NCBI GenBank assembly: GCA_902826945.1 | Contig: CADEGS010000002.1 | Span: forward strand, 1 to 64,000 | Source of the DNA: an uncultured bacterium | GTDB lineage: Bacteria > Planctomycetota > UBA1135 > GCA-002686595 | Reading direction: 5' to 3' | Length of the DNA stretch: 64,000 bases | Notes under the pieces: generated by a model | The model's database searches: none | What the model was told of the DNA's origin: nothing | Seen by the model: the letters and a program-made list of their open reading frames with translations, nothing else | Part shown: positions 15,947 through 33,673 of the stretch, piece after piece | Position numbering within the stretch: position 1 is the first letter of the stretch | Layout: each line of letters starts with the position of its first letter | Made by a program: the position numbers and the translations under genes

Positions 15947-16897
15947 TCAAGGCGCTCCGAAGAGCTTGTCCAGCGGACCGAGGTCCACCGGGTGCGCGCG
16001 CCGCGCCGCGAGCTGCCAGGGCACGAACTCCGCGTCGCGCAGCGGCTCCTCCGCGAGCGAGGCCTCGACCGCCTCCCCCACCGCCGACCAGTCGCCGGGG
16101 AGCGGGGCGCGCTCCTCCTCGACGCGCAGGAAGAGCGCGTGGCCGAGGACGCGCACGGGCCCCCCGACCGCGCCCCGCCGCGTCAGGAAGGCGACGCGCG
16201 CGAGCGCCGAGCGCGGGTCGTCCACCAGGTACGCCACCAGGCCGTCGCGCTCGCGGCTGTCGTCCACCGAGAGCTCGCGCACGAGCGCGACGAAGTCCTC
16301 CCCGGCCGCCAGCCGCCGGCGCACCTGGAGCACGGCCTCGCCCTCCGCCGCCCCGCCGTCGGGCGGGCCGGGCTCCTCGACGGCCAGCAGGCGCACCGCG
16401 CGGCTCGGCTGGGCCAGCGTCCAGGCGCGCACCACGCGCTCGATCGTCAGCCGCTCGCGCGTGCGCCGCTCGAGCGCCGCCCACCAGGCCGCGGGCAGGA
16501 CGCCCAGCTCCACGCGCAGGAAGTCCTCCGGCGAGCGCCCGCCCGCGGAGCGCTCGAGCTCGGTCCGGGCCCGCGCTCGCTCCAGGGCGAGCGCCTGCGC
16601 CTCGACCTCGGGATCGACGCGCACGCCCAGCCGCGCCGCCTCGAGCAGCGCCAGGCGCGCGCTCACCAGCCGCTCGGCGAGCAGCCACGGCTCGCGCGGC
16701 GCGCCCTCGTGCCAGGCGCGCAGCAGGTCCTCGGCCGTCAGGTCCTGGCCGGCCACGCGCCCGATGACGCCCGGCGCGGCGGTCCCGGCGAGCGGCTCGA
16801 GCGCGGGCGGAGCGCGCTCCGGCACGCGCGCCTCGCGCGCCGGCGCGGCGCAGGCGGCGAGCGCCGCCAGGAGCGCGAGGGCGCGGCGCGCCCTCAC
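15947..16897 (-). CDS. SurA/PrsA-like parvulin lipoprotein
   Basis: 316 residues from GTG at 16897-16895, overlapping the previous stop by four bases. The N-terminus is a short signal peptide ending in the lipobox LAAC (Cys16), so the protein is probably lipid-anchored outside the cytoplasm. A helical chaperone region (about 40-165) is followed by a parvulin-like domain: GEAVLQVRRRLAAGEDFVALVREL, then SVDDSRERDGLVAYL and AVGGPVRVLGHALFLRVEEE match the A-x-x-l-x-x-G-x-x-F / S-x-D-x-s-x-x-G-G / P-V-x-x-x-G-x-h framework. Last gene of the pseudopilin operon; it may fold pilin-like subunits or exported substrates. Confidence 0.75.
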   Translation of the reverse strand: MRARRALALLAALAACAAPAREARVPERAPPALEPLAGTAAPGVIGRVAGQDLTAEDLLRAWHEGAPREPWLLAERLVSARLALLEAARLGVRVDPEVEAQALALERARARTELERSAGGRSPEDFLRVELGVLPAAWWAALERRTRERLTIERVVRAWTLAQPSRAVRLLAVEEPGPPDGGAAEGEAVLQVRRRLAAGEDFVALVRELSVDDSRERDGLVAYLVDDPRSALARVAFLTRRGAVGGPVRVLGHALFLRVEEERAPLPGDWSAVGEAVEASLAEEPLRDAEFVPWQLAARRAHPVDLGPLDKLFGAP

Positions 16898-18444
16898 CGG
16901 TAGCGGACCCGGCGCACGCGCCCGAGCGTGTGGCAGGTCGGGCAGGGGAAGGTGCCCTCGCCGGCCGTCTGGCCCTCGATCGCGCCGCCGCTGAAGATCA
17001 CCTCGCGCACGCCGCGCCCGCCGCACTCGCGGCAGTTCGCGAAGCGCACGCGCTCGAGCCGGAACACGTCGGAGGACTCGACCAGGTCGGCCAGCAGCCA
17101 CTGCGCGCGCGAGCTCGCGTCCCAGGCGCGCCAGAAGGCCTCGGGGTCCTCGCCCGTGCCCTTGCGCCCCTGGTTCTTGCGCAGCACCTCCTGGTTCTCG
17201 AGGTAGCGGCGGATGCGCGCCTCGAGCCGCTTGCGCGCGTCCTCCTGCGTTCCCTCCTGCGCTGCGGCGGCGGCGTCCGCCTCGGCCTGCGACTCGGGCG
17301 TCGCGAGCGCGCGCTCCTCGCCCAGGAGCCAGGTGCCCAGCCCGTAGGAGGCCTGCCGGAAGCGGCCGCCCGCGCGCTGGTCCCACAGCGCGCGCGCTTG
17401 CGCCGCGGTGAGCGCCGGCGCGATGCGCTGCAGGTCGCCCAGCGCCGCGGCGAAGAGCTCCTCCTCGAAGCGGTCCTCGGCCCAGTCGCGCGCGGCCTCG
17501 AAGCTCGCCGCGGCGCGCGCCGCGTCGCGCGCGAGCCGCTCCGACCAGCGGTGCACGCTCTCGACCACCGCCTCGCGCAGGTCGCGCTCCTGGCTGCGCT
17601 CGAGGCGCCTCCGCGCGCCGTTCCAGTCCTCGAGCAGGGCCGAGCCGGGGAAGCGCTGCGGGAAGGCGTCGAGCAGCGCCCAGGCGCGCTCGTACTGGCC
17701 GCGCGCGCGCCACAGGTCCGCCTCGGCGAGCACGTCCACCTGCTCCTGCACGGCCGCCCTGGCGCCGGCGCGCTCGAGGCCCTGCCCCACGCGCTCGGGC
17801 TGGAAGCCCGGCGCCAGCGCGCGCGCGATCTCCCAGTGCTCGACGGCGTGCGCGTAGTCGAGCATGCGCTCGCACTGCTCGGCCAGCTCCACGTGCGCGC
17901 GCGCGCCGGCCTCGCCGTCGCGCACGAGCTCGGGCGCCAGGCGGCCGGCCAGCTCCTGGTAGAGCTCCGCGCGCGTGTAGATCTCGAGCGCGCTGGCGCG
18001 CACCAGGCCGATCGCCGCCACGCGCTCGCGCGGGACCGGCACCGTGCCGTTCGCGCGCTTGAGCCAGAGCTCCTCGCCGTCGCGCTCGACGATGCGCCCG
18101 ACGAGCGCCGTGCCGTCGTGCAGCACGAGCCGGTCGGCGTCGATCAGGATCTCGTCCTCGCCCTCGTCGACGTACCCGAGCAGGAGCTTCAGCTCGCGCT
18201 CCTGCGCGGGGTCCAGCCAGCCCCAGCCGAGGTGCACGAGCCCGCCGCCCTCCAGGCGCCGCACGCGCAGCTCCTGCTCGTCGTGCGCCTCGATGCGTCC
18301 CCACACGGTGCGGCCGTCGCGCAGCTCGAGGAGCTGCACGCCTCGCGCGGAGTCCTCCGCCGCGGGAGCCGCGCTCGTCTGGGCGCGCGCGGCGGCCGCC
18401 GCCGCCGCCGCCAGGAGAACGAGAAGCGCCGCCAGGATCCTCAT
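16894..18444 (-). CDS. Secreted protein with C-terminal CxxCxGxG-type zinc site, in pseudopilin operon
   Basis: 516 residues, family not recognised. A signal peptide (Ala-rich, cleavage near ARA-QTS) precedes two short beta repeats beginning LLELRDGRTVWGRIEAHDEQELRVRR and LVLHDGTALVGRIVERDGEELWLKR, which look like tandem small barrels. A long helical region (about 150-450) resembles TPR/coiled helices. The C-terminus has two DnaJ-like cysteine motifs, CRECGGRG and CPTCHTLG, about 25 residues apart, so one zinc site is likely. Overlaps of four bases at both ends tie it to the GspI-like and parvulin genes. Function unknown; a periplasmic assembly factor is the best inference. Confidence 0.55.
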   Translation of the reverse strand: MRILAALLVLLAAAAAAAARAQTSAAPAAEDSARGVQLLELRDGRTVWGRIEAHDEQELRVRRLEGGGLVHLGWGWLDPAQERELKLLLGYVDEGEDEILIDADRLVLHDGTALVGRIVERDGEELWLKRANGTVPVPRERVAAIGLVRASALEIYTRAELYQELAGRLAPELVRDGEAGARAHVELAEQCERMLDYAHAVEHWEIARALAPGFQPERVGQGLERAGARAAVQEQVDVLAEADLWRARGQYERAWALLDAFPQRFPGSALLEDWNGARRRLERSQERDLREAVVESVHRWSERLARDAARAAASFEAARDWAEDRFEEELFAAALGDLQRIAPALTAAQARALWDQRAGGRFRQASYGLGTWLLGEERALATPESQAEADAAAAAQEGTQEDARKRLEARIRRYLENQEVLRKNQGRKGTGEDPEAFWRAWDASSRAQWLLADLVESSDVFRLERVRFANCRECGGRGVREVIFSGGAIEGQTAGEGTFPCPTCHTLGRVRRVRYR

Positions 18445-18941
18445 CGTCCGCTCCGCTCGCGCGGCTCGCCCGCGCCCTCGAGGAAGGTCCGTCGCATCCG
18501 CTCGCCGAAGGGCACCTCGCCCAGGAGCAGCGTCGTGAAGCGCCGCGAGCGGCGCGCGCCCGAGGCGCTCCAGGAGAGCTCCACGTCCACACGGTACTCC
18601 AGCGGCGCGCCCGGCGCGGCCTCGGACGCGGGCCGGGCGGTCGCCGAGTAGACCATCCCCGCCACGCCCGGCACGGGCCGCGCGCGCACCTCGCGCGGCG
18701 CGCCCGCGGCGCCCAGCGCCTCGCCGGGGAGGAGCGGGAAGAGCGTCTCCTCCAGGTCCGCCACGACCGCCTCGACCGCCTGCGCGGAGCGCGAGCGCAG
18801 GAGCGCCGTGCGCGCCAGCGAGGCGCCGACCGAGAGGAAGCCCAGCACGGCCGTGATGCCGACGAACAGGATGCCCATCGCGAGCACGACCTCGAGGATC
18901 GTGAAGCCCGCGCGCGGCCGCCCTCTCCCGCGCGCGCTCAT
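18441..18941 (-). CDS. Pseudopilin, GspI-like
   Basis: 166 residues. A short basic leader ends in the prepilin-peptidase site RAG|FTILEVVLAMGIL, with Glu at mature position +5 and a hydrophobic helix of about 20 residues that also serves as the fibre-core helix. The following LLRSRSAQAVEAVVADLE and the small globular tail fit minor pseudopilin GspI/PilV. It lies directly after the GspJ-like gene, as I and J usually pair at the tip of the type II pseudopilus. It needs a prepilin peptidase, which is not in this window. Confidence 0.75.
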   Translation of the reverse strand: MSARGRGRPRAGFTILEVVLAMGILFVGITAVLGFLSVGASLARTALLRSRSAQAVEAVVADLEETLFPLLPGEALGAAGAPREVRARPVPGVAGMVYSATARPASEAAPGAPLEYRVDVELSWSASGARRSRRFTTLLLGEVPFGERMRRTFLEGAGEPRERSGR

Positions 18942-20005
18942 CGCAGCCAGGCCTCGCGCGCGCCGGCCAGCGGGACCTCGAGCGCGAAGGCGCGCCCGTG
19001 GTGCACGAGCGTCCCCGCGGCGTGCGCGCGCTCGACGCTGCCGCGGCGCGCGCGGCGCACGCTGGCCTCGTCGCCGCCGCTCGCCACCAGCTCGATCCAC
19101 TCCTCGTCCACCAGGAGGAAGGTGCCCGGCGCGGGCCAGCGCGCCCTGTCGGTGATGCGCAGGAGCGTCTCGCCCGGCTCGAGCGCGGCGGAGAGCCGCG
19201 GCCGCCATGCGCGCTCGCGCGCGAGCTCGAGCTCGAGCTCCACGCGCGCGCGGCGCGGCAGGAGCGGCGCGTCCCGCGCGGCGAGCAGGCCGGGGGCCGG
19301 CTCGTTGAAGCCCGAGCGCTCGGGATCGGGCCGCCCGCGCGACCAGGCGTCCCAGCTGGCCGCGCTGGCGGAGAGCCCCCCGTCCAGGCGCCAGCCCTCC
19401 TCGAGCGCGGTCGTGGCCGTGGCGAAGCGGAAGGAGAGCCACAGCACGTCCTCCTCGCGCGTCTGCGCGAGCGCGGCCAGCGGGCGCACGTCCCCCGCGG
19501 CGCTCAGCGCGGAAAGGACCCCCGCCGCCGGATCGTCGAGCGCCACCTCGGCGCGCAGGAGCGCGGGCGGCGCCGGCGCGTCGGGCGCGGGGCCGAAGGC
19601 CCACAGGACGAGCGCGCGGTCGCCCGCGCGCGCCGCGCGCAGCAGCCGGTCGCGCGCGGCGAGCGCGTCCGCGTCGCTCGCGCGCGCCGTCTCGGCCGCG
19701 CTGCGCGCGCGCACGAGCAGGAGGCGCGGCAGCACCAGGCCCGGCAGGCCGTCGCCGTCGGCGTCGCGCGTCTCCCAGGCGCACACGAGGTCGCCCGCGG
19801 CACCGGGCTCGAGCGAGCGCAGGTCGCGTCCGAGGCGCTCGAGGAGCGCGCTCGCGCGCTCGGCCTGCTCGCGCCGCAGCTCCGTGTCGCTCCACAGCGT
19901 GAAGCACGTGTCCGCCAGCCGCACCAGCGCCACCATCAGGATCGAGAAGAGGCCCAGCGCGAGCAGGACCTCGACCAGCGTGAAGCCCGCGCGCGCGCGG
20001 CTCAT
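18938..20005 (-). CDS. Pseudopilin, GspJ-like, with an added 'RG..H..G' beta module
   Basis: 355 residues from ATG 20005. Leader RAG|FTLVEVLLALGLFSILM has Glu+5, followed by a helix with the GspJ-type pattern (SDTELRREQAERASALLERLGRDL). GspJ proteins are usually about 200 residues. The extra C-terminal part includes a compact module at about 277-330 (LLRITDRARWPAPGTFLLVDEEWIEL ... RARRGSVERAHAAGTLV) that recurs in the neighbouring GspK-like protein. Four-base overlaps with both neighbours put it in one transcript. Likely part of the tip complex of the fibre. Confidence 0.75.
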   Translation of the reverse strand: MSRARAGFTLVEVLLALGLFSILMVALVRLADTCFTLWSDTELRREQAERASALLERLGRDLRSLEPGAAGDLVCAWETRDADGDGLPGLVLPRLLLVRARSAAETARASDADALAARDRLLRAARAGDRALVLWAFGPAPDAPAPPALLRAEVALDDPAAGVLSALSAAGDVRPLAALAQTREEDVLWLSFRFATATTALEEGWRLDGGLSASAASWDAWSRGRPDPERSGFNEPAPGLLAARDAPLLPRRARVELELELARERAWRPRLSAALEPGETLLRITDRARWPAPGTFLLVDEEWIELVASGGDEASVRRARRGSVERAHAAGTLVHHGRAFALEVPLAGAREAWLR

Positions 20006-23000
20006 CGCTCGACCCTCGCGAGCAGGACGCTCGGCGCGAACCACTCGGCGCCGAGGAGGTGCAGGCGCGGCGTGGTCTTCCAGGCGTGCGACAGGCCCGC
20101 GCGCGGGTCGAACGCGCCCCGCGCGTGGCGCGCGAACACGCGCCAGGTGACGCCGTCGGCCTGGAAGCCGAGCGGCGCGGCGCGGCGCGCGCCGCCGTCG
20201 CCGGCGTCCGGCGCGCCCGCGGAGGACGAGCCGGAGAGCTCCTCCAGGCCGCTCGCGGCGCGCGGCGGGGCGTCCCAGGGGACCTCCGCGCGCGAGCGCT
20301 GCAGGATCCCGAGCTCGGGCCCGCCCCCCGCGGGCTCTTCGACCTCCCAGAAGGCCTGGCGCCAGAAGGCCGCCGGCTGCGCGAGCGAGAGCTCGAGCGA
20401 GGCCAGCTCGGGCGCGTCGGCGCGCTCCGCCCAGCGGTCGGGGTAGCGGAAGGGGAACAGGATCACGGGCACGCCGTCCTGGTGCGCGGCGGGCTCGGTG
20501 CCGAAGCGCCCGCGGAAGAGCCCGGGGCCGCGCCCGTCGCAGCGGCCGGGCTCGAGCGAGGCGCGCGGCATCGCCAGCGCGTCGCCGATCCGGTGGGTGT
20601 AGTGCACGAGCTCGTCCTCGATGCGCACCAGCCCCGACTCGGGGAACCCGCTCGCGTCGGCGAGCGGCACGAGCGCGCTCTCGGGCTCCAGCGCGCCCGC
20701 CAGGCGCGCGACGCGCAGCCCCGGGAGCGGCGTCACCGGCTCGCCCGCCGCGTGCGCCGTCGCCTCGCTGCCGAGCAGGCCGCGGCCGCCGCGCGCGAGC
20801 GCGAGCCGCCCGCCGCCGTCCGCGCGCGCGCACACGATCTCCTGGCCGACGCGCGCCAGGAAGGCGTCGCCCGGGAGCAGCGCCGGCACCGCGCCCGCCA
20901 GCAGGCGCTCGCCCTGCGGCACGAGCAGCCGGTCGGGGTGCACCGTCAGCGCGGCCGTCTCGCCGCGCGCGAGGGGCTGCGCCAGCTCGAGCTGCGCGCC
21001 GCCGTCCTGGATCTGCAGGCGCGGCCGCCCGAAGACGACCTCGTCCGCGAGCGCGTCGGGCACGCCCGAGCCGGCCTGCGCGCTGCCGCCGAGCGCGACG
21101 GTCGCCGCCGCGCGCGGCAGCTCGCCCGCGGGGAAGAGCGTCACGCGCGCCGTGCGCCGGCTGTCCGCGCCGGGCGCCGGCCCCTGCGAGGCGCCGCCGG
21201 GCACGATCGGGACGCCCGGCGGCCCTTGCAGCGCGACGTAGGTGACCGAGACGTCGAAGCCGTCCTCGGTCGCGAGCGTCGAGGGCGCCAGCGGCTCGGT
21301 GCCGAGCGGCACCGCGCGCGAGGGCCGCCAGTGGTGCAGGACGGTGTCGAACGGCCGGTAGGCGTGCTGCACGACGCCGGGGAAGCCCGGCAGCTCCGGG
21401 TCCGCGTCGAACAGCGTGACCGCGTCGAGGCGGCCCGGCCAGCCGCCCTTCTCGCTCTCCGGCGCGACGACCTTCCACACCGGCAGGACGAGCGCGCCGG
21501 CCGGCTGCGCGTGGGAGTGCGTGCCGAGCACGCCGCGGAAGCGCAGCGCGGAGGCGAGCGCGCGCGTCAGCGGCAGGTCGTCGTCCTCGGGCGTCCCGAG
21601 CGCCGGCTGCCACAGGGGCGGCCCGTCGGCGGACGGCGCGCGCGCCGCGCGCGCGGGCGGCGCGGGCGCGGCCGGGTCGGCGCTGGCCTCGGCGCGCGCC
21701 TCGTCCTGCGGGAAGACGACCGGCCCGCCGGGGTCGGTGAACACGACGCGCAGGACGGGCGACTGGGCGTGCGCCTCGGCGCGCACGCGCAGGAGCGTCG
21801 CCGGGTCGTCGCGCACGAGCTCGCCGCCGACGATCTCGTCGTAGCGCACCCACTCGGTGAGGGCCGCGTCGGCGCCCAGGCGCGTGACCTGCGCGAAGTC
21901 GCTCGCGCCGCCCGAGTCGTAGAAGCCGACGCCGCCGCCCTGCACGCCCGCGGCGAGCGAGATCGGCACGATCAGCGTCTGCAGCTCCAGGCGCTCGTCG
22001 GCGTCGAGCTGGCTGCCGTCCACCGACACGCCGCCCGCGCCGTCGTTCCAGTCCACGATCCAGGCGCAGCGCCCGACGATCGGCGAGCCTGCCAGGTTGG
22101 CGAGCTCGGGCACCTGATCGCCGCGCCGGTCGATGTGCAGCGTGTCTCCCTGGCGGCGCGAGTAGTGCACGACCTCGAGGAAGCTCAGCCGGTCGCCCTC
22201 GCTCGTCGTCTGGTCCTCGGGGCCGTAGAAGCCGAGCAGCGCCGCGTAGCCGCCGCGCTCGGAGAAGGCCGCCAGGACGCGCGCCTTGTCCGCGCCCGGG
22301 TCGGCGACGTCGAGCACGAGCGCGGTCACGCGGCTGTTCGCGCCCTTCATGCCCCAGCCGACGTTCGTCGGCTGCGCGTCGCCGATCTGCAGGAAGATCG
22401 GCTCGGGCGGGCTCGGCAGCACGCCGCGCACGCGCGCCACGCCGAACGGGCCGAGCGCGCTCGCCAGCCGCCCGGAGGCCGCCGGGACGCGCTCCGCGAC
22501 CGCCAGGCTGTAGCCGTACAGGGCCACCGCCTCGCCGGCGGCGTGCGTGCCGCCCTTCTCGATCTCGCCCAGGTTCGTCGCCGGGTCGTGGCCGAACACG
22601 ACCTCGCGCGCCAGCCGCCCGCCGAAGCCGGAGAGCTCGCCGGTCTCGTGCGGGACGGCGCGGAAGGTCACGGCGTCCTGGACCACGGCCTCGACCAGCT
22701 CGTGCCCGATCGCGAGCACGCAGCGCTCGGGGAAGCCCTCGGTCGAGCGCACGAGGATGCGCTCGTCCTCCAGGCGCAGCGGCGCGGCGAGCCGCGTCAG
22801 GCCCGTGCCCTCCTCCACCGCGCGTCCGTCCACGAGCAGCGTGACCTGGTCGGGGCGGTCGCCGCGCACGTCGCAGGCGACGTGCACCCACGTGTCGGCC
22901 GGCAGGCCGGGCGAGGCCGGGCCGGCGGCCAGCGGGAGGCGCGCCTCGGTGCGCTCCTCGAAGCGCGTGGCGGGGTGGTCGGGCGCCGGGCCGAGCACGC

Positions 23001-25017
23001 GCAAGACGAGCGCGCCGTCCTCGACGCCGAGCGACACGCGGTCGGAGTCGGAGAACGCGCCGGCGACGTCGAGCAGCAGCGCGCCGCTCGCCAGCGTGCG
23101 CAGGCGGAACCAGCCCTCGAGCGCGAAGGGCGCGAGCAGGCCGTCGTCGTCGAGCCACGCGACCGGCGCCGCGCCCGCCGCCAGGCGCAGCGGCGAGTCG
23201 TCCAGCGCGCGGCCCTCGGGGTCGGGGTCGTCGTCGAAGTGCAGCACGCGCCCCGCGCGCTCGAAGGCCGGCGTGTCGCGCTCGTCGGCGCGCGCCGGCG
23301 CGAGCTGCACCCAGCCCTCCTCGCCCGCGTCGGGGAAGCACGGCGGCCCGGGCGTCGCGGCGTCGCGCGCGCTCGCGCCGGCCTCGCTCGCGCGCCCGCC
23401 CCAGTGCGCGCGCGCCTCGCTGGGCCGACCGAAGCGCTGGCGCGCGTCGGCGCGCAGCGTGTTGCGCGGACCGCTGGTCCAGCCGCCCTGCGCGCCGTCC
23501 AGGCGCGCGGCGGCGTCGAGCTCGCTCTGGCGCGTCCAGGCGCCGAGCAGGTCGCGCTGCGGCACCACCAGCGCGACGTCCTCGCGCTCGCGCGCGCAGA
23601 CCAGCGCTCCGCTCGGCGCGTTGACGGCCGCGCGCAGCTCAAGCGCGTACACGTCGCGCGAGGCGAAGGCGAAGGGCATGGTCGAGAAGGAGAGCGCGGC
23701 GTCGTTCGCGTTGAGGCCGTTGCGGTAGAGCGCCTCCGCGTCGGCGCGCTCGAGGAAGGACGGCGCGTCCGGAGCGCCCGGCGCCGCTTCCTCCTCGCCC
23801 TCGACGGAGAACGACAGGCCCGCGGCGGGCAGCACGACGCGCCGCAGGAAGTCCTCGAAGCCGGCCAGCGGGCGCGCCTCGACCACGCGCCGCGCCAGCT
23901 CGCGCGCCTCGCCGGCGGTGATCCAGCTCGGCGCGCCCACGAGCTGCAGGTTCTCGAAGAGCGCCGCGAGCACCTCGTCGGACGCCGTGTTCAGGTTGAC
24001 CGGCACGCGCGCCAGCGGCGCCACGACGGCGTCCAGCGGCCCGAAGGCGAGGCGCGGCGGCGCGACGAGCTCGACGAAGCCGACGCCCGCGCTGCGCACC
24101 ATCGAGAGCTCGACCCCCGCCGGCCCCTCGATGCGCACGGTCGTGCCGGCGTTGAACCAGCGCGCGTCGTCGAGCTGCAGCCGGCAGCGCTCCTCGCCCG
24201 CGCCCGACGAGAGCACGCGCGCGCCGCGCTGCCAGCGCGCGCCGGCCTGCGCGGCCGCGTGCACGCTGGTCGTGCGCGCCAGGCGCGCCAGCGCGTCGGC
24301 GCCGTCCGCCCCCGCCGCCGCGAGCTCGGCCGCGACGCGGTCCAGGCCGTCGAACGCGCGCAGCCCCTCGGGGCCGAGGCGCCAGCGCGCCAGCGCCCAG
24401 GCCGCCTCGCCGAGGAGCAGCGCGCCGGGGACGTGCTCCGCGGCGGCCGGCCCGCAGGCCGCGAGGTCGGCGGCGACGCCGCGCGCGACGCCCTCGAGCG
24501 CGTCCGGCGCGCGCGCGGACCAGCGCACGAGCTCGCCCTCGAGCCAGCCCAGGCCCGCGGGCGCGAGGCCCGCGCTCGAGGCGACGGGCAGCCGCTCGTC
24601 GTCCGGCCCGACCGCCTCGGACAGCCGCGCCAGGGCGCCGAGCAGGCTCGCGAAGAGCTGCGGCGGCGCGCTGGCGGGGTCGATGCGCCCGGAGAGGTCG
24701 GTCGCGCTCGCGCCCCACATGACGCCGAAGGGGTCGGCGTGGTCGAGGACGGCCGGGTCGAGGCTCCCGAGCGCGAGCTCGTCCGGCCCGTCGCTCGCGG
24801 GCGTGGGGTCGAGCGCCGCGTGCGACGCGCCGAGCAGCGCGCGCGCGTGGCGCGCGGCCGCGTCGAGGGCGAGGCGCGCCTGCGCCTCCTCGGCCAGCCG
24901 CGCGGAGGCCTCGTCGGCCTCGCCCAGGCTGGCGAGGAACGGCGCCGAGAGCGCCAGCAGCGCCGCCAGGACGATCAGCACGGCGACCAGGGCGAAGCCG
25001 TCCTGCGCGCGCGTCAT
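20002..25017 (-). CDS. Giant GspK-like pseudopilin with LamG domain and repeated beta modules
   Basis: 1,671 residues, against roughly 300 for ordinary GspK. The N-terminal helix DGFALVAVLIVLAALLALSAPFL lacks Glu+5, as GspK/PilX-type proteins do. A GspK helix-hairpin-helix region lies at about 339-400 (PVNLNTASDEVLAALFENL ... ARPLAGFEDFL). A concanavalin/LamG-like domain sits near 590-735 (FALEGWFRLRT ... WVHVACDVRGD...VTLLVDGRAV). A short beta module with the pattern d-x-x-x-F-P-x-x-G-x-x-x-I-x-x-E-l-V ... RG ... A-H-x-x-G-x-x-V is seen about five times (near 142-198, 283-335, 750-825, 1362-1435 and 1442-1525). The size rules out a simple tip protein; it probably displays a long adhesive or glycan-binding arm. 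GC-rich codon use is uniform, so I see no fusion scar. Confidence 0.75.
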   Translation of the reverse strand: MTRAQDGFALVAVLIVLAALLALSAPFLASLGEADEASARLAEEAQARLALDAAARHARALLGASHAALDPTPASDGPDELALGSLDPAVLDHADPFGVMWGASATDLSGRIDPASAPPQLFASLLGALARLSEAVGPDDERLPVASSAGLAPAGLGWLEGELVRWSARAPDALEGVARGVAADLAACGPAAAEHVPGALLLGEAAWALARWRLGPEGLRAFDGLDRVAAELAAAGADGADALARLARTTSVHAAAQAGARWQRGARVLSSGAGEERCRLQLDDARWFNAGTTVRIEGPAGVELSMVRSAGVGFVELVAPPRLAFGPLDAVVAPLARVPVNLNTASDEVLAALFENLQLVGAPSWITAGEARELARRVVEARPLAGFEDFLRRVVLPAAGLSFSVEGEEEAAPGAPDAPSFLERADAEALYRNGLNANDAALSFSTMPFAFASRDVYALELRAAVNAPSGALVCAREREDVALVVPQRDLLGAWTRQSELDAAARLDGAQGGWTSGPRNTLRADARQRFGRPSEARAHWGGRASEAGASARDAATPGPPCFPDAGEEGWVQLAPARADERDTPAFERAGRVLHFDDDPDPEGRALDDSPLRLAAGAAPVAWLDDDGLLAPFALEGWFRLRTLASGALLLDVAGAFSDSDRVSLGVEDGALVLRVLGPAPDHPATRFEERTEARLPLAAGPASPGLPADTWVHVACDVRGDRPDQVTLLVDGRAVEEGTGLTRLAAPLRLEDERILVRSTEGFPERCVLAIGHELVEAVVQDAVTFRAVPHETGELSGFGGRLAREVVFGHDPATNLGEIEKGGTHAAGEAVALYGYSLAVAERVPAASGRLASALGPFGVARVRGVLPSPPEPIFLQIGDAQPTNVGWGMKGANSRVTALVLDVADPGADKARVLAAFSERGGYAALLGFYGPEDQTTSEGDRLSFLEVVHYSRRQGDTLHIDRRGDQVPELANLAGSPIVGRCAWIVDWNDGAGGVSVDGSQLDADERLELQTLIVPISLAAGVQGGGVGFYDSGGASDFAQVTRLGADAALTEWVRYDEIVGGELVRDDPATLLRVRAEAHAQSPVLRVVFTDPGGPVVFPQDEARAEASADPAAPAPPARAARAPSADGPPLWQPALGTPEDDDLPLTRALASALRFRGVLGTHSHAQPAGALVLPVWKVVAPESEKGGWPGRLDAVTLFDADPELPGFPGVVQHAYRPFDTVLHHWRPSRAVPLGTEPLAPSTLATEDGFDVSVTYVALQGPPGVPIVPGGASQGPAPGADSRRTARVTLFPAGELPRAAATVALGGSAQAGSGVPDALADEVVFGRPRLQIQDGGAQLELAQPLARGETAALTVHPDRLLVPQGERLLAGAVPALLPGDAFLARVGQEIVCARADGGGRLALARGGRGLLGSEATAHAAGEPVTPLPGLRVARLAGALEPESALVPLADASGFPESGLVRIEDELVHYTHRIGDALAMPRASLEPGRCDGRGPGLFRGRFGTEPAAHQDGVPVILFPFRYPDRWAERADAPELASLELSLAQPAAFWRQAFWEVEEPAGGGPELGILQRSRAEVPWDAPPRAASGLEELSGSSSAGAPDAGDGGARRAAPLGFQADGVTWRVFARHARGAFDPRAGLSHAWKTTPRLHLLGAEWFAPSVLLARVER

Positions 25018-26030: not shown

Positions 26031-26668
26031 CGCTCGAGCGTGCTCACGTCGTCCTCGGTGTCGAAGCGGCCGTCGGGGCCGGCCGAGGAGAGCTGGTAGC
26101 GCGTCGCGCGCAGGAAGCGGCCGGTGTCGGCCTGGCGCAGCGCCAGCGGGAAGCTCGTCTCCTCTTCGCCGGTCGCGGGATCGCGGCAGACGTAGGCGCG
26201 GTCGTGGCGCTCGTAGTCCGCGTGGTGCAGGTAGGAGAGCGGGTTGCCCCAGGCGTCGCCGATCTCGAGCAGCTGGCGCGAGTCGAAGTCGGTGAGCTGC
26301 GCGCTCGAGCGGTCGCCGTCCGCGTTGACCAGGCGGTCGGCGACGTCGTCGAGCAGGCCGCCCGCCTCGCGCCCGCGCGACCACAGCGCCACGACCAGCG
26401 CCTCGACGCCGACGTTCGCGCCGTCGTTGGAGACGCCCTGCTCGGGCGTGAACGAGCTCGGCGGGAAGTCGCCGTGCTCGCGCTCGAAGGCGTCGATGGC
26501 GGCCTCGACGCGCGCCAGCAGCCGGCGCGTCGCCTCGACCTCGGCCACCTCGCGGCCGGCCAGGAGGTTCGTCACGAGCAGCGTCGTGAGGATGGCCAGG
26601 ATGACGAGCACCGTCAGGATCTCGATCAGCGTGAAGGCCGACCGGCGCGTGCGGCGGGGCGCGCTCAT
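26027..26668 (-). CDS. Major pseudopilin, GspG-like
   Basis: 213 residues from ATG 26668. The leader ends in RSA|FTLIEILTVLVILAILTTL with Glu+5; Ala replaces the usual Gly at -1, which some prepilin peptidases accept. The tail has the GspG signature: FEREHGDFPPSSFTPEQG, then DAWGNPLSYLHH and YQLSSAGPDGRFDTEDD, the last giving the acidic residues that bind calcium in GspG. This is expected to be the main shaft subunit. First pseudopilin in the operon order G-H-K-J-I, compared with the canonical G-H-I-J-K. Confidence 0.82.
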   Translation of the reverse strand: MSAPRRTRRSAFTLIEILTVLVILAILTTLLVTNLLAGREVAEVEATRRLLARVEAAIDAFEREHGDFPPSSFTPEQGVSNDGANVGVEALVVALWSRGREAGGLLDDVADRLVNADGDRSSAQLTDFDSRQLLEIGDAWGNPLSYLHHADYERHDRAYVCRDPATGEEETSFPLALRQADTGRFLRATRYQLSSAGPDGRFDTEDDVSTLER

Positions 26669-29355
26669 CGCCGCACCACCGCGGCCGCGTCGTCCAGGCG
26701 CAGCGCCACGCGCCGGCCCGCGTCGCCCTGCACGAACACGCCGGCCTGCAGCGGGCTGGCCGTGCTGCCCAGCGCGGCGAAGGAGGCGTCCTCGATCAGC
26801 GCGATGCCGTCCAGGGAGAGCGTGACGCGCGAGTCCGAGCCGGCGCCCGAGCGCTGGGCGCGCAGGCGCACCCAGCGCCCGACGGGGAAGGGCTCGGGCA
26901 CCTCGACCGTCTCGGGCTCGACGCCCTTGCGCGCGAAGGAGAGCTCCAGCGCGCCGTCCTTCTGGCGCGCGATCGCGACCTCGGCCAGCGTGTCGCTGGC
27001 GTCCTGGCGCACGCGCTCGCGCGCGACGAACAGGCCCGCGCGCGCGGTCGTGGCCGGGTCGATCCACACGTCCACCTCGAGCGAGACGAACCCGGCCGCC
27101 GCGTACTCGCGGAAGACGCCGACGCGCCCGGCCTGCGCGAACACGCCCTGCACGTGCACGACGCCCTCCTGGAGCGTCACGAGCGGTCCCGCGCCCTCGC
27201 GCACCGTCCAGCCGTTGCGCAGCTCGAGGCGCTCGAAGTCGTCGGTCCACTCGACCTTCTCCGCGTGGTCGGCGATGCGCGCGATCTGCGCGCGCGCCCA
27301 GGCGCGGTAGGGGTCGTCCTCGGGCAGCGCGCGGCGCGCGCGGTCGAGGTCGGCGAGCTGCACGCGCGCCTCGGTCGCGTCGCCGTCGAGATACGTGCAC
27401 CAGGCGAGCCCCGCGCGCGCGACCGGGTCGTCCTCCTCCAGCGCCACGGCGCGCTCGAAGGACTCGCGCGCCGCGCCCGCGGCGCCGCGGCGCAGCGCGT
27501 TCCAGCCGCGCAGCGCGTGCAGCGAGGCGCGCGCGCCGTCCCCCTCGAGCGCCAGCGCGCGCTCGAGGTAGCGCTCGGCGCCCTCGAACTCGCCGCGGCG
27601 GAAGGCGGTCTCGCCCAGCGCGACCAGCGCGTCGGCGAAGGACGGCGCCGCCGCCAGCGCCGCCAGGAACGACTCGTGCGCGCCCTCGGGGTCGTCGCGC
27701 GCGAGCAGCAGGCGCCCGCGCTGGTAGAGCGACCAGACGTCGTCGGGCGTGTGCTCGAGCGCGGCCTGCGCGAGGGACAGCGCCTGCTCGGGATGGCCGC
27801 TCGCCTCGGCCAGGAAGGAGAGCGCCGCCAGCGGGCGCTGCGCGCGCAGCGGGTCGGCCGCCAGCGCCTGGCGCAGGAGCTCCAGCGCCTGCTCGCCGCG
27901 CCCCTGGAGCGCGGCCTCGACGCCGCCTGCCAGCAAGAGCTCGAAGCCGCCCTGCGGCGCCGCGGCCGGCGGCGCGGGCACCTCGGGCGCGCGCGCGCCG
28001 CACAGCCGCGCGGAGCGCAGGCCGGCCAGCGCGCGCTCGTTCGTCGGGTCGGCGGCCAGCACCTGCGCGAGCACGCGCGCGGCCTCGTCGGGGGCGCCGA
28101 GCGCCAGGTGGCAGGCGCCGAGCGCCGTGCGCACCTCCGCGCGCAGCGCGAGCGCGCCCGGGTCCTGCGGCAGGTCGAGCGAGGCGCGCGCGAGCTCGGG
28201 CAGGGCCTCGTCCGCGCGCCCGCGCGCCAGCAGGAAGCGCCCCAGCGCCGCGCGCGCGAGCCAGCCCCGCTCGGGCAGCGCGCAGGCGGCGCGCAGGCGC
28301 TCCTCGGCGCGCGCGTCGAGCAGGAAGCGCTCCTCGACGCCGGCCAGCTCGACCTCTGGCTCGGCGTCGCCGGGGTGCGCGTCGGCCAGCGCCTGGAGCG
28401 CGCGCAGCGCACCCTCGAAGTCGAAGCGCGCCGCGGCCACGCGCGCGAGCAGGAGCCCCGGCTGCGCGGCGTCGGGGTCGTACGCGGCGCAGGCGCGCCC
28501 GAGCTCCTCGGCGATCGCCAGCGCGCGCGGGGCCTCGTGGCGCAGCGCGAGCGCGCGCTCGGCCAGCTCCAGCGCCGGATCGAAGCGCGCCGCGTCGATC
28601 GCGGGCTCGGCGCCGAAGCGGCGCCGCTCGAGCTCGAGCGCGTTGGCCGGCGTCTCGGCGAAGCCGAAGGAGAGCACGTCCTCGCGCGCGACGTCGATCG
28701 CGGGCGCGCCCAGGCTGGCGTGCACCTCGCGCCCGGTCTCGGGGTCGACCTGCACGAAGCGCAGCGGCTCCTCGGCGCGCCGCGGCTCGCCCGGCAGGCC
28801 GTAGCGGTCGTCGTTCACGATGCGGCCGTAGACCGTCGTGCCCGAGCGCCGCTGGATCCAGTCGTGGCGCGCGCGGTAGCCGGCCTGGCGCGCGAGCTCC
28901 TGCGCCGGCGTCTCGCGCGGGCGCCCGGCGCCGCCGCCGCGCACGACGTCGCCCTCGACGGCGGGCGCCTGCGGCTCGTCGGGCGGGTCGAAGAGCGCGG
29001 GCGCCTCGAAGCGCGCGACCGGCGCGCGCAGGAGGTCGAAGGCGCGCGGCGCGGGCCCCGGGTCGCAGGGCGGCAAGAGCAGCGCCAGCTCCGCGCGCGG
29101 CGGCTCCTCGGGCGCGAGCGGCGGCAGCGGGTGCGTGTCGCTGGGCGGGACGAAGAGCTCGCGCGCGCCCGCCAGGCGCGCCCCGTCGGGGAGCGCCAGC
29201 TCGGGGCGCGGGACGGCCTGCGCGGGCGGCGGCTCGGGATCGACCGCGCGGCGCGCGCCGCGCAGCGCCGTCGCGCCGCCGCCCAGCCGCAGCGCGCAGA
29301 CGCCCAGGACGACGAGCGTCCCGAGGAAGACGACCTGCTCCTGGCGCACGCGCAC
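26665..29355 (-). CDS. Membrane-anchored TPR protein with C-terminal jelly-roll domain
   Basis: 896 residues. One N-terminal membrane helix (about 8-25) is followed by a Pro-rich linker, then about 450 residues of helical TPR repeats (LARVAAARFDFEGALRALQALADAHPGDAEP, LGACHLALGAPDEAARVLAQVLAADPTNERALAGL and many more). The last 200 residues (about 698-896) form a beta-sandwich with DDFERLELRNGWTV, AAGFVSLEVDVWIDPA, RWVRLRAQRSG and VTLSLDGIALIED, like LamG or 3-keto-disaccharide-hydrolase-type folds. In type IV pilus systems PilF/PilW-type TPR proteins help secretin assembly; a similar role is possible, but the size and jelly roll are unusual. Confidence 0.65.
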   Translation of the reverse strand: MRVRQEQVVFLGTLVVLGVCALRLGGGATALRGARRAVDPEPPPAQAVPRPELALPDGARLAGARELFVPPSDTHPLPPLAPEEPPRAELALLLPPCDPGPAPRAFDLLRAPVARFEAPALFDPPDEPQAPAVEGDVVRGGGAGRPRETPAQELARQAGYRARHDWIQRRSGTTVYGRIVNDDRYGLPGEPRRAEEPLRFVQVDPETGREVHASLGAPAIDVAREDVLSFGFAETPANALELERRRFGAEPAIDAARFDPALELAERALALRHEAPRALAIAEELGRACAAYDPDAAQPGLLLARVAAARFDFEGALRALQALADAHPGDAEPEVELAGVEERFLLDARAEERLRAACALPERGWLARAALGRFLLARGRADEALPELARASLDLPQDPGALALRAEVRTALGACHLALGAPDEAARVLAQVLAADPTNERALAGLRSARLCGARAPEVPAPPAAAPQGGFELLLAGGVEAALQGRGEQALELLRQALAADPLRAQRPLAALSFLAEASGHPEQALSLAQAALEHTPDDVWSLYQRGRLLLARDDPEGAHESFLAALAAAPSFADALVALGETAFRRGEFEGAERYLERALALEGDGARASLHALRGWNALRRGAAGAARESFERAVALEEDDPVARAGLAWCTYLDGDATEARVQLADLDRARRALPEDDPYRAWARAQIARIADHAEKVEWTDDFERLELRNGWTVREGAGPLVTLQEGVVHVQGVFAQAGRVGVFREYAAAGFVSLEVDVWIDPATTARAGLFVARERVRQDASDTLAEVAIARQKDGALELSFARKGVEPETVEVPEPFPVGRWVRLRAQRSGAGSDSRVTLSLDGIALIEDASFAALGSTASPLQAGVFVQGDAGRRVALRLDDAAAVVRR

Positions 29356-29358
29356 GGG

Positions 29359-30135
29359 TCAGCCGCTCTCCTCGCGCGTCTGCGCCGGCAGGCGCGGGAT
29401 CACGATCGTGAGGTCCAGGCGCAGCTCGCGGTCGCGGCCGCGCGCGGCGCCGATCTCGGCCTGCGCGATGCGCAGCACGCGCCCGTCGGCCGGGCGCTGC
29501 GTCGCGCCCAGCACCGCCGTCAGCGCGCGCGAGCTGCCCAGGATCTGGAAGCGCACCTGCGTGCGCTCGATCGCGCCCTCCGCCGCGCGCGCGGCCGGGT
29601 CGGGGTCGAGCCGCACCTGGATGCCCTCCACGCGCCGCGCGCGCGCGGCGATCGCGGCCTGGGCCACGGTCTCGACCACGTCCAGCGCCTCGAGGTAGCG
29701 CTCGATCTCCTCGCGGCTCGTCGGCGAGAGGCGCGGCATGCCCAGGCCGGGCTCGACCGAGACGTTGGCGCGGCCGGCCTCCGTCAGCACGCGCTCGCGC
29801 ACCTCGCTCGAGACGCGCAGGTAGCGGTTGGCCGGCGGGACGGACTCGTCGCCGGCCGCGAGCTCGGGCCGCGGCTCGAAGGCGACCGCCGCGCGCAGGC
29901 GCTCGACGCAGGCGCGCAGCGCGTCGTGCTCGCGCGCGACCTGGTCGCGCTCGGCGGTGCCGTACATCGCCTCGCCGAGCTCGCGCTCGAGGCGCCGCAC
30001 GCGCGTGGCCTCGCGCGCGACGTCGGCGGCCCACAGCGCGTCCACGACGAGCACGCCCAGGCCGAGCGCCGCGGCGCCGAGCCCCACGCGCGCGACGAAG
30101 CCCTTGTTCTCCTGCCAGTAGCCCTCGAGGTCCAC
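29359..30135 (-). CDS. PilO/GspM-like inner-membrane protein
   Basis: 258 residues from GTG 30135, two bases after the PilM-PilN stop. A short cytoplasmic N-terminus, one membrane helix (about 17-37) and a periplasmic coiled segment (ARLVRRLERELGEAM...RDQVAREHDALRACVERLR type heptads) lead into an alpha/beta region like the ferredoxin folds of PilO or GspM. Identity rests on size, topology and position directly after the PilM-PilN gene rather than on sequence motifs. It would pair with the PilN domain to connect the inner-membrane platform to the periplasmic parts. Confidence 0.6.
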   Translation of the reverse strand: MDLEGYWQENKGFVARVGLGAAALGLGVLVVDALWAADVAREATRVRRLERELGEAMYGTAERDQVAREHDALRACVERLRAAVAFEPRPELAAGDESVPPANRYLRVSSEVRERVLTEAGRANVSVEPGLGMPRLSPTSREEIERYLEALDVVETVAQAAIAARARRVEGIQVRLDPDPAARAAEGAIERTQVRFQILGSSRALTAVLGATQRPADGRVLRIAQAEIGAARGRDRELRLDLTIVIPRLPAQTREESG

Positions 30136-30137: not shown

Positions 30138-31754
30138 TCAGGCGCCTCCGGCGTCCGCGTCCCCGCCGGGCGCGGAGACCTCCAGGGTGAAGAAGGCGGC
30201 CGTGTCGCCCATGCGCTCCTGGACGCGCAGGCCGTCCAGGCGCGCGCGCAGGTCCGCCACGAAGGCGGCGAACTGCTCGGTCGTGGCCTCGGTGCCCTCG
30301 CGCGCGCGCCCGCTCAGGCGCAGCAGCGGGCGCTCCTCGCCCGCCGCGCCGCGCTCGCGCTCGAGCGTGCTCGTGAGCCCTTCCAGCCAGAACTCGCGCG
30401 GCAGGCTGGCCTCGACCGCGGCCAGCGCGCGCACGAGCGTCTCGCCCGACGCTGCCAGCGCGAACAGCTCGCGCGCCTCGCGCGCCAGGGCGTCGTTCTC
30501 GGCGGCGAGCGCGCGCGTCTCGTCGTGGACGCGCTCGGCGCCGCGCAGGCGCGACTCGAGCCGCGCCGCCTCGCGGCCGAGCGCGCGCGCGCGGGAGCGC
30601 TGCGTCCAGGCGTAGGCGCCGAGGAACAGCACGGCGAGCAGCGCCGCCGCCAGCAGGAAGACGCCGCGCTCGCGGAAGGCGCGCCGGCGCTCCAGCGACT
30701 CCGGCAGGATCTCGATCGAGTAGGCCTCGGGGTCCGAGCCGGAGAGCGCCAGCCCGAGCGCCACGACCGACTCCAGGCGCCGCGCCTCGAGCGCCTCGCG
30801 CTGCGCGCCCGGCAGCCTCGAGACGTCCACCAGCGCGAACGGGTCGAAGCGCTCGACCGGCACGCCGAGCGCCGCGCGCAGGTGCTCCGGCAGCCCGTCC
30901 AGGCGGGCGCCGCCGCCGCACACGAGCACGCGGTCGAGCTTCAGGGACGAGACGCGCAGCTGCGCCTTGCAGAAGGAGAGCGTCGAGGCGAGCAGGCTCG
31001 CGACCTGCTCGGCCGGCGCCAGCAGCGCCTTGTAGGCCTTCTCCTGGTTCGCGTCGCGGAAGGGCGCGCCGCGCAGGCTGGCCTCGGTCTCCTTGTAGCG
31101 CGCGGCGCGCTCGGGCGGGACGCCGAAGCGCTCGGCCAGCGCCGCGTCGAAGAGCTCCGAGCCGCCGCCCAGGTTGCGCGCCAGGAGCAGGTCGGTGCCG
31201 CGCGTCAGCACGACGTCGATCGAGCTCGCGCCCAGGTTGGCGACCAGCACCGTCTCGTCGAGCACGGAGCCGAAGCGCAGGAAGGCGTTGTAGAGCGCGA
31301 TCGCGTTGGGCGTGAACGCGTCCAGCGTGCCGCCCGCCGCGCGCAGCCCCCGCTCGTGCTCCTCGAGCAGGCTCTCGCGCGCCATCGCGAGCAGCACGAC
31401 GTCCTCGCCCTCCAGCTCGGGGATCTCCGCCAGGACGTTGAAGTCGGAGGCCACCGGCGCCTCGGACTGCTGGCCGATCTCGCGCGCCTCGAAGCGCACC
31501 AGGCGGCGCAGCTGCCAGTCGGCCACGCGCGGCACGCGCGTGTAGCGCACGTTCACGTCGCGACCCGTCAGCCCCACGCGGCAGGCGCGCGGGCGCAGGT
31601 GCGCGGCCAGCGCGCCCCAGCCCGCCGCGGGCGTGCCGTCCGGGTTCTCCGCCGCCGCGAAGGCCGTGGCGACGAAGCCCGTGCCGTGCGCGTGCCCCGC
31701 GAGCGCGCGCACGCCGCTCGTGCCCACGTCCACGCCGGTCGCGCGCCGCGCCAT
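30138..31754 (-). CDS. PilM-PilN fusion (GspL-like assembly platform protein)
   Basis: 538 residues. Residues 1-340 are an actin/FtsA-like PilM: GVDVGTSGVRAL (phosphate-1 loop), FEAREIGQQSEAPVASDFNVL (SHS2 region), LVANLGASSIDVVL (phosphate-2) and RVLVCGGGARLDGL (adenosine loop). A membrane helix at about 364-383 is followed by a coiled coil and an alpha/beta domain with the PilN pattern (LRALAAVEASLPREFWLEGL). PilM and PilN are usually separate proteins; GspL is naturally a fusion of the same two parts. The single chain therefore looks GspL-like while keeping an intact PilM nucleotide fold. ATG 31754 shares one base with the FHA stop. Confidence 0.85.
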   Translation of the reverse strand: MARRATGVDVGTSGVRALAGHAHGTGFVATAFAAAENPDGTPAAGWGALAAHLRPRACRVGLTGRDVNVRYTRVPRVADWQLRRLVRFEAREIGQQSEAPVASDFNVLAEIPELEGEDVVLLAMARESLLEEHERGLRAAGGTLDAFTPNAIALYNAFLRFGSVLDETVLVANLGASSIDVVLTRGTDLLLARNLGGGSELFDAALAERFGVPPERAARYKETEASLRGAPFRDANQEKAYKALLAPAEQVASLLASTLSFCKAQLRVSSLKLDRVLVCGGGARLDGLPEHLRAALGVPVERFDPFALVDVSRLPGAQREALEARRLESVVALGLALSGSDPEAYSIEILPESLERRRAFRERGVFLLAAALLAVLFLGAYAWTQRSRARALGREAARLESRLRGAERVHDETRALAAENDALAREARELFALAASGETLVRALAAVEASLPREFWLEGLTSTLERERGAAGEERPLLRLSGRAREGTEATTEQFAAFVADLRARLDGLRVQERMGDTAAFFTLEVSAPGGDADAGGA

Positions 31755-33673
31755 CAGCCGCCTCCCGTCGCGGTCGCGCGCAGCCGCGCGAGCTCCTCGC
31801 GCAGGCGCCCGGCGAGCGTCGGCGCCCCGGCCAGCGCGCGCGAGTCCAGGAGCGCCTCGAGCCGGCCGGCGCGCTCGCCGGCGCGCGCGCGCTCCCAGGT
31901 CGCGAGCTCCGCCTCGAGCTCGCCGGCCAGGCCGTCGGCGAGCGGCTGCACGTCCGTCCCGCCGTACGCGCCGGCGAGCGCCCGCGCGCGCCGCAGCGTC
32001 TCGCGCAGGAGCGCCGGCAGCCCGAAGAAGCGCGCGCGCTCCAGCTCGCGGCGCACCTCCTCGACCTCCTGCAGGCCGGCGGAGACGAGCCGCGCGCTGG
32101 CCGCCTGCGCCTCGCGCACGAGCGCGCCGCGCAGCGGGACGCGCGCGAGGAGCTCGTCCCAGGAGGCCAGCGCCGCGGCGGGATCGTCGCGTCCCTCGGC
32201 CGCCAGGGCCTGCTCGCGCAGGAGCTCCGCCTGCGCCAGCTCGTCGCGGAAGCGCAGCTGGACGCGCAGCGAGGCGCCGTCCTCGCAGGGCGCCTGGGCG
32301 CGCAGGCTCGCGCCCGCGAGGTCGCCGCGCAGCGGCCGCGGCGGGTCGAAGCGCACGCGCAGCGTCTCGACGCCCGCGCCCAGGATCAGGTCGCTCGCGC
32401 CCTCGACGGCGAGCTCGCCCGCGTGCGCGCGGAAGCCCGCGGCGCCCAGCGTGGCGGCCCAGGGCTCCTCGCCGCTCGCGCGCAGGAGCAGCGCCAGCGC
32501 GGCGCCCGTGCCGGAGCCGCGCGCGCCGACGCGGAAGCCGTCGTCGAGCGTCTCCGCCTCGAGCCAGCCCGTGCCCGGCCCGCGCAGGCCGTCCTGGCCC
32601 CAGCCCGCGAGCGCCAGCTCGAGGACGGTGCGTCCGCCGCGCACGATCGAGAGCGCGGTCGGGCGCTCGCCTGCGCCCAGGAGCTCGTCCTCGAGGAAGC
32701 GCGCGCGCGGCGGCGGCGGCGGCACCGCGACGACGCTCGCGTCGTCGAGCGCGAAGGCGCCCGGACCGCGCGCTGCGGCGACCACGCGCGCCTCCTCCCA
32801 GCCCGGCGCGATCGGCACGACGAGCTCGAGCTCCTGGAAGTCCGGCGCGCTCGCGGCGGGCATCGACCACGCGATCAGGCGGCGGCCGTCGGCTGCCTGG
32901 CGCTCGATCCCGACGCGCATGGGGCCGGGGGGCGACGCCGGGTCGGGCGCGCTCGCGCGGGCGCGCAGCGCGACGCTGAGCCGCAGCGCGCGCGCGCCGC
33001 GCAGCGCGAAGGCGGGCGAGCGCACCAGGCTCCACTCCTCCGGGCCGAGCTCGACGCCCAGCCCGGCGGCGCCGCTGCGCGCGTGCTGCTCGCCGCGGCG
33101 CAGGGCGCGCGGCACGGACGCGGGCGCCTCCCAGGCGGGAGCGCCCTCGTCCTCGAAGGAGCCGCCCGGGAGCAGGTCGCCCGGCACCGCCTGGGGCGCG
33201 CGCGCCGCGGGTCCAGGCTGCGCGTCCCCTCGCGCGCGCGCGCGCAGGCGCACGAGGGCGAACGCCGCCAGCGCGAGGAGGGCCAGCGCGAAGAGCGCCC
33301 ACGGTCGCCGCGCCGGCGCGGGCGGCGGCGTGCGCGCGGCGGACGCGTCGTCGGGCGCGGCGAGCCGCTCCTCGAAGCGCCGGTCCACCAGCACGAGCTC
33401 GACGTTGCCGACGTGGAGCCGGTCGCCGTGCGCGAGGCGCGCGCTCTCGACGCGCCGGCCGCCGACGCGCGTGCCGTTCGTGCTCTCGAGGTCGACCACG
33501 CGCACGCCGTCGTCCTCGATCTCGAGCCGCGCGTGCGCCGCGGAGACCGAGGCGTGGGCCAGACGCAGCGCGCTGCCGGGGCCCCGTCCGATCACGTGCC
33601 GGCCCGGCTGGAGCGCGACCCGCTCGCCCGCCCGCTCCCCGGACGCGAAGCGGAGCTCGAAGCGCGTGTCCAT
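31754..33673 (-). CDS. FHA-domain membrane protein, first gene of pseudopilin operon
   Basis: 639 residues. An FHA fold occupies 1-96: GRHVIGRGPGSALRLAHASVSAAHARLE and LESTNGTRVGGRRV carry the phosphothreonine-binding Gly-Arg, Ser-x-x-His and Asn-Gly residues. A Pro-rich linker and one membrane helix (about 124-143) follow, so FHA is cytoplasmic and some 490 residues are outside. The outer part includes a beta-rich carbohydrate-binding-like region (PGGSFEDEGAPAWEAP; ALRLSVALRARA; DFQELELVVPIAPGW) and a C-terminal helical tail. It may link Ser/Thr phosphorylation to the secretion machine; a soluble Ser/Thr kinase is encoded at 37109-38164. The order fha-pilMN-pilO is strict, with 1- to 3-base joins. 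Confidence 0.72.
   Translation of the reverse strand: MDTRFELRFASGERAGERVALQPGRHVIGRGPGSALRLAHASVSAAHARLEIEDDGVRVVDLESTNGTRVGGRRVESARLAHGDRLHVGNVELVLVDRRFEERLAAPDDASAARTPPPAPARRPWALFALALLALAAFALVRLRARARGDAQPGPAARAPQAVPGDLLPGGSFEDEGAPAWEAPASVPRALRRGEQHARSGAAGLGVELGPEEWSLVRSPAFALRGARALRLSVALRARASAPDPASPPGPMRVGIERQAADGRRLIAWSMPAASAPDFQELELVVPIAPGWEEARVVAAARGPGAFALDDASVVAVPPPPPRARFLEDELLGAGERPTALSIVRGGRTVLELALAGWGQDGLRGPGTGWLEAETLDDGFRVGARGSGTGAALALLLRASGEEPWAATLGAAGFRAHAGELAVEGASDLILGAGVETLRVRFDPPRPLRGDLAGASLRAQAPCEDGASLRVQLRFRDELAQAELLREQALAAEGRDDPAAALASWDELLARVPLRGALVREAQAASARLVSAGLQEVEEVRRELERARFFGLPALLRETLRRARALAGAYGGTDVQPLADGLAGELEAELATWERARAGERAGRLEALLDSRALAGAPTLAGRLREELARLRATATGGG

Follow-up and report, generated by a model that had tools for sequence, protein, structure and literature searches.

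Eleven consecutive genes from an uncultured member of the Planctomycetota encode pseudopilin-type subunits, a platform and lectin-like domains, which raises the question of what machine they build: a second type II secretion (T2SS) pseudopilus, an accessory of an ordinary type IV pilus (T4P), or a type IV filament (T4F) of their own whose motor lies elsewhere. They are located in the window, the whole stretch of DNA analysed here (64,000 nucleotides, from position 1 of contig CADEGS010000002.1).

Layout and products of the operon

All eleven genes (Table 1) lie on the minus strand from 33673 down to 15947, and each frame shows codon-position bias. At ~79% GC, the operon region contains long spurious ORFs in its other frames, and gene calling therefore relied on codon-position bias together with a codon model trained on the called genes. 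Of the ten junctions, seven are overlaps of 4 bases and one (FHA/PilMN) is an overlap of a single base; PilMN stands 2 bases from the PilO-like gene, which in turn is 3 bases from the TPR gene. Junction measurements and codon-position bias thus bear out the near-seamless arrangement on one strand described in the initial annotation. Same-strand gaps or overlaps of a few bases also occur at several other junctions within the window, so seamlessness alone is weak evidence; it is the conservation of gene order, not seamlessness, that is above chance.

Downstream of the operon, scpB is followed by a PpiD-like gene, while an rsmE-like gene (plus strand; named by reading), radC, a peptidase-MA-like gene and a protein kinase gene lie upstream. 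The kinase, peptidase-MA-like and RadC genes (34746-38473) are kept upstream of the FHA gene in 39/51, 37/51 and 41/51 loci respectively, counting only loci with enough upstream sequence. Parvulin-type proteins occur three times in the window (13057-15042, 15947-16897 and 39729-41144), with the operon's copy being a below-cut-off match. Rfam and tRNA scans returned no matches.

Table 1. Operon genes in order from 33673 to 15947, the repeated GspK module and the next gene downstream (window positions; E-values from Pfam models).
Feature	Position	Strand	Length (aa)	Evidence
FHA protein	31754..33673	-	639	FHA domain, residues 8-97 (FHA E 5e-15; Yop-YscD_cpl E 4e-16); one TM, jelly-roll-like region after it (both by sequence reading)
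PilM-PilN fusion (PilMN)	30138..31754	-	538	PilM actin-like domain (PilM_2 E 1e-13), IEILPE motif, TM, coiled coil
PilO/GspM-like protein	29359..30135	-	258	AlphaFold2 model (pLDDT 85) and Foldseek; Pfam search without match
TPR protein with C-terminal LamG-like jelly roll	26665..29355	-	896	N-terminal TM (by reading); TPR E 7e-23; Laminin_G_3 E 0.023 at residues 761-873, below cut-off
GspG-like pseudopilin	26027..26668	-	213	N_methyl E 1e-5, over cut-off; T2SSG E 0.006, below
GspH-position pseudopilin with LamG module (residues 127-273)	25014..26030	-	338	Laminin_G_3 E 3.5e-5 and N_methyl E 0.001 (18.9 vs 21.2 bits), both below cut-off
Giant GspK	20002..25017	-	1671	T2SSK helix-hairpin-helix, residues 340-367 (T2SSK E 6e-6, over cut-off); ConA/LamG-like domain (LamG E 0.002, below cut-off); repeated ~64-aa module
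~64-aa module, five copies in GspK (20461..24603)	24421-24603, 22525-22767, 21487-21570, 20734-20865, 20461-20673	-
GspJ-position pseudopilin	18938..20005	-	355	N_methyl E 1.8e-6, over cut-off; alignment
GspI-position pseudopilin	18441..18941	-	166	N_methyl E 2e-4 (21.0 bits), just below cut-off; alignment
Secreted-looking CxxC protein	16894..18444	-	516	Paired CxxC motif at C-terminus; Pfam search without match
Parvulin-like lipoprotein	15947..16897	-	316	Rotamase E 0.013, below cut-off; lipobox by reading
scpB	15178-15909			Next gene downstream, 37 bases beyond the parvulin gene

Pilin-type subunits with class III signal peptides are present, the N_methyl model matching over its cut-off in GspG and GspJ and under it in GspH and GspI; 15 of 18 GspJ members match it at E <=0.05. 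The pseudopilin letters were assigned from gene order and the N-terminal motif, and the Pfam models for the H, I and J pseudopilins matched none of the operon's proteins. Of the two last genes, the CxxC motif is missing or degraded in some of 14 aligned sequences (L135, L115), and the parvulin-like lipoprotein is represented by an alignment of 7 sequences.

A platform of the type IVa PilM and PilO kind is also present, as indicated by Pfam, hhalign and the PilO fold. PilM_2 matches all 29 aligned PilMN members and the Pfam PilN model none of them; hhalign relates PilMN to T4P PilM (98.6%) and its residues 352-410 to the PilN N-terminus, comprising the motif and TM (36.7%, E 4e-4). The model of the PilO-like protein finds Amuc_1100 of Akkermansia as its best solved-structure match by Foldseek (E 3e-8 to 2e-6; identity 10-14%), followed by PilO 2rjz (E 0.002). 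Amuc_1100 is the PilO-like protein of an Akkermansia pilus cluster.

GspK is a giant, ordinary GspK being about one-fifth of its size. An iterated HMM of its ~64-aa module detects 333 copies across 67 GspK proteins, and one copy near the C-terminus of GspJ (E 3e-6, with a profile itself seeded from GspJ columns). Six matches at E <=0.001 were obtained for the GspK model against the PDB with Foldseek, all of them LamG-type proteins, at query TM values (0.06-0.08) that are low because the model is so long; the ConA-like fold is clearer by VIA-align. A pilin module is joined to a carbohydrate-binding-like domain in GspK (by fold) and in GspH (by a LamG match below cut-off); the LamG matches of GspH, GspK and the TPR protein are all three under the Pfam cut-off. 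Judging from their fold, these lectin-like modules may bind sugars.

Conservation across Planctomycetota

The operon is widely shared within the phylum. Among the best 120 of 601 PilMN homologues, those named by organism belong to Planctomycetota. A scan of species genomes gave 131 related stretches, the best 80 of which were used as near loci; with each gene scored over those loci that extend far enough to include it, PilMN is accompanied by FHA in 78/79, PilO in 74/78, TPR in 67/67, GspG in 66/66, GspH in 60/60 and GspK in 58/58, with all six in 56/58 and median junction lengths of -1 to 22 bases. In the complete genomes Pla86, Poly30 and Pla163, GspJ, GspI, CxxC, parvulin and ScpB then follow in identical order. 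A PilMN profile matches in 170/199 genomes of the phylum, many of these matches being weak or due to other PilM proteins.

In 20 hand-chosen distant genomes (locus GC 0.52 to 0.74), PilMN, TPR and GspG are found in all 20 loci, GspH in 19 (a 20th being a cross-hit in L148), FHA in 18, GspK in 18 and PilO in 17, and GspJ in 16, GspI in 15, CxxC in 12 and parvulin in 8, these last counts partly limited by stretch ends. L148 (G139) lacks every gene past GspG within its stretch, and in L144 (11677-14114; G016) GspH and GspJ occur without a giant GspK between them. The same gene order, which the initial annotation had proposed to look for in other planctomycetes, is found in near relatives and, for most of the operon, in most of the distant genomes read.

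Candidate motor and secretin genes

Profile searches of the window, the 80 near loci and three downstream stretches turned up no motor or secretin gene of full length, and in the 20 distant loci a profile for E, F or D was never the best match. In two relatives, the E2 profile of the cassette described below matches in part (44-46 bits) upstream of the operon, at L016 (3564-5051) and L037 (4001-5938), perhaps in MshEN-only proteins. From the original proposal of a hybrid fibre with carbohydrate-binding parts whose secretin, ATPase and GspF lie elsewhere, the T4F parts and the lack of a motor or secretin gene at the locus stand; the carbohydrate binding is suggested by fold, the link to a motor is indirect and the secretin is a candidate.

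The filament systems of Pla86, Poly30 and Pla163 were listed by GspE, secretin, GspF, N-methyl, T2SSK and PilM families, with many loci read. Besides the pseudopilin operon, each genome has a separate gspD-E-F-G-H-I-J cluster; near pnp, a secretin adjoining a gene weakly assigned as K-like (in Pla86, T2SSK E 0.002, under the cut-off); an L-like gene elsewhere (T2SSL over cut-off in Pla86); loci for the T4P motor and for PilM/PilQ (read in Pla86, placed from coordinates in Poly30 and Pla163); and a PilB-PilT-PilB-PilC cassette without a pilin gene nearby. In Pla86, PilA and PilQ sit outside the operon at other loci (L117, L124); genes for type IVa pili are usually scattered, as Denise 2019 states (PMC6668835), a paper whose main text does not contain the string 'planctomycet'. 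Pla86 has exactly three GspF and three PilM genes, of which T4P and T2SS use two each, so that the cassette F and the operon's PilMN are each other's leftover.

Several other loci were observed in these genomes. These include a further T2SSK match in Pla86 (1436112, 1153 aa), a compact extra filament system (secretin, E, F, pilin) that Poly30 and Pla163 have (L108:3376-12047, L109:4421-12245) and that was not seen in Pla86, and Tad-like genes in Pla163 (named by reading). In all three and in G077, two secretin-domain proteins of ~830-915 aa flank ExbB/ExbD-like genes (by reading), and a large protein lies alongside (L118:5170-19768, L119:2468-15789, L120:2606-16800, L192:5309-16777), an unusual proton-motor-like combination.

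The cassette, PilB(E1)-PilT-PilB(E2)-PilC(F), is seen in the window's relatives and is unlinked to the operon. Among the matches listed, it is intact in 11 of 16 operon-bearing genomes, namely the three complete ones and 13 more. Among the matches listed for these 13, eight show E-T-E-F, one E-E-F (G138, without T), two E-T-E without an adjacent F (G174, G059) and two no intact cassette (G084, G139); the first eleven were confirmed by profile, and the classification of the last two comes from coordinates alone. Neither profile nor motif scan found a pilin beside the cassette in operon-bearing genomes. Both cassette PilB proteins of Pla86 have an MshEN domain, a domain that can bind c-di-GMP.

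The cassette is not confined to genomes with the operon, and exclusive co-occurrence was rejected: 29 genomes have no PilMN match, and of 20 of these that were searched at least eight have E-T-E, with F adjacent in all eight. In five of these eight, F is directly followed by pilin-like genes, four or five in number and recognized by motif or reading, and a K-position protein of 1562-1664 aa comes next in four of the five, the fifth contig ending inside the gene. The remaining three have the cassette without a pilin alongside, and a PilM_2 search found other PilM genes in each of the eight. No sequence homology of these giant K proteins to GspK was detected (hhalign probability <=0.7%, no 64-aa module), and the likeness between the two cassette contexts is therefore positional. 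Specific homology of the accompanying pilins to GspG or GspH was also rejected, as their scores match or barely exceed those of generic pilins (GspG profile up to 57 bits vs 34-45 bits for unrelated pilins). In trees, the cassette E proteins (n=44) form one clade (support 0.998), with clades for E2 (0.997) and E1 (only 0.374), and the F proteins (n=20) form another (0.841). Cassettes of operon-bearing and operon-lacking genomes share these clades, apart from the six comparison sequences (three T2SS, one T4P and two extra-system). The neighbourhood in PilMN-negative genomes is the main evidence, of an indirect kind, for the cassette driving a filament of the pseudopilin type; from this neighbourhood and by elimination, we infer that this filament is the one encoded by the operon.

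For the secretin, a profile (D_pnp) of the short orphan gene near pnp was made from its copies in the three complete genomes; one candidate was picked in each of nine further operon genomes, and all nine matched this profile best. A K-like gene is adjacent in five of the nine (one weakly) and a few kilobases away in one more; candidates from G174 and G059 were set aside as PilQ-like. This K-like gene, of 470-545 aa, lies with the secretin between pnp and purA (L110:6570-10335, L112:7442-10532, L127:5967-9492, L183, L184, L187). The short secretin may serve the operon's filament or be the T2SS's own, and the K-like gene beside it is a candidate for the missing K of the T2SS.

A proposed split filament and its alternatives

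The operon probably supplies one half of a type IV filament system that is split between loci, occurs phylum-wide and is probably able to retract. The reading preferred here, held with moderate confidence, is that its products are the filament and the inner-membrane platform of a T4F machine distinct from the T2SS and T4P of the same cells, with the unlinked cassette as its motor and a lectin-like tip for binding glycans or surfaces followed by retraction. GspG would form the shaft, while H, I, J and the giant K would together make up a bulky lectin-like tip, from which K would project its ConA-like domain. PilMN and the Amuc_1100-like PilO would be the platform that couples the fibre to cytoplasmic ATPases, so that PilB and PilT, via PilC and PilMN/PilO, could add or remove GspG subunits beneath the tip. 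The FHA protein would pass phospho-signals to this platform, and its occurrence with an upstream kinase suggests phospho-control. The fibre would exit via a secretin, bind an extracellular glycan or surface and then retract, retraction being implied by PilT in the cassette.

With T4aP, the operon and its candidate motor share a PilM-type domain, an INLLP-like link to a putative PilN part, the PilO fold and a PilB/PilT/PilC-type cassette. However, PilM and the putative PilN are fused, the proposed shaft is pseudopilin-like rather than PilA, the cassette has two PilB-type ATPases, and FHA and TPR-lectin proteins form part of the operon.

An unlikely alternative is a second, divergent T2SS pseudopilus that exports proteins by borrowing GspD, GspE and GspF from the resident T2SS. 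The operon does resemble a T2SS in its five pseudopilin-type genes, the T2SSK helix-hairpin-helix of its K and its GspL/M-like platform, PilMN being a GspL-like fusion of actin-like and periplasmic parts; in GspL these parts are likewise fused. The parvulin and CxxC proteins could, in addition, handle cargo. However, D, E and F were not found at the locus, K is ~5 times the normal size and the likely motor includes PilT. Genome-wide profile searches for T2SS and T4P components, another check proposed at the outset, revealed that the resident gspDEF cluster of the three complete genomes coexists with the operon and owns pseudopilins G, H, I and J, with an L-like gene elsewhere; the separate PilT-bearing cassette, for its part, has no other evident partner in Pla86.

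It is less probable still that the operon supplies accessory minor pilins and a platform, for priming and as a tip, to an ordinary type IV pilus driven by the T4P motor. T4P PilM is the closest relative of PilMN, and H-I-J-K sets are described in part of PMC9934059 as interchangeable between filaments in promoting assembly, yet the operon has its own GspG-like protein, PilM and PilO. In G077, moreover, where the operon is present, all five GspE-family and all three GspF-type genes fall in the cassette or in two secretin-bearing clusters and a separate T4P motor is not evident, in a 2.5 Mb genome that may be incomplete. A DNA-uptake (competence) pseudopilus is very improbable: in other bacteria, DNA is taken up with the help of short T4F that retract, but the modules found here are lectin-like rather than DNA-binding, and reading of the neighbourhoods brought no competence gene to notice.

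The open-access literature searched yielded no paper recognizable by its title or the start of its abstract as describing the operon. The lectin-like tip of the preferred reading has a precedent in modular pilins. In Streptococcus sanguinis, PilC is described in parts of PMC9934059 as a ConA-like modular lectin pilin that is modelled at the tip and binds glycans. As here, such pilins combine a pilin module with a ConA-like lectin module at a proposed tip (parts of PMC8179133 and PMC9934059); they differ in that K itself is giant here, with LamG-like modules also in GspH and the TPR protein. In planctomycetes, the crateriform structures carry pili-like fibres of 12 nm to which dextran binds, and the uptake system is described as awaiting characterization, according to passages of PMC5394234, the main text of which contains neither 'type IV' nor 'type II secretion'. 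Taken together, the glycan-binding modular pilin and the dextran-binding fibres suggest that the retracting fibre may capture glycans. A more far-reaching proposal is doubtful and put forward tentatively: that the operon represents a distinct, phylum-wide class of retractable T4F, its motor having two PilB proteins and its tip a giant lectin K, and that it is, or lies within, the dextran-binding fibre of crateriform structures, capturing polysaccharide and drawing it into the periplasm.

Named homologues of the giant K of the pilin-linked cassette include Thalassoglobus, Maioricimonas, Planctomicrobium and Rubinisphaera; of these, Thalassoglobus and Rubinisphaera share a family with the genetically tractable Planctopirus limnophila, a species from which three pilQ-like genes have already been deleted (PMC11958385). 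Cultured strains that carry the operon include Engelhardtia mirabilis and Saltatorellus ferox. The operon and its candidate motor cassette provide a concrete gene set with which to test the question of the planctomycete dextran fibre.
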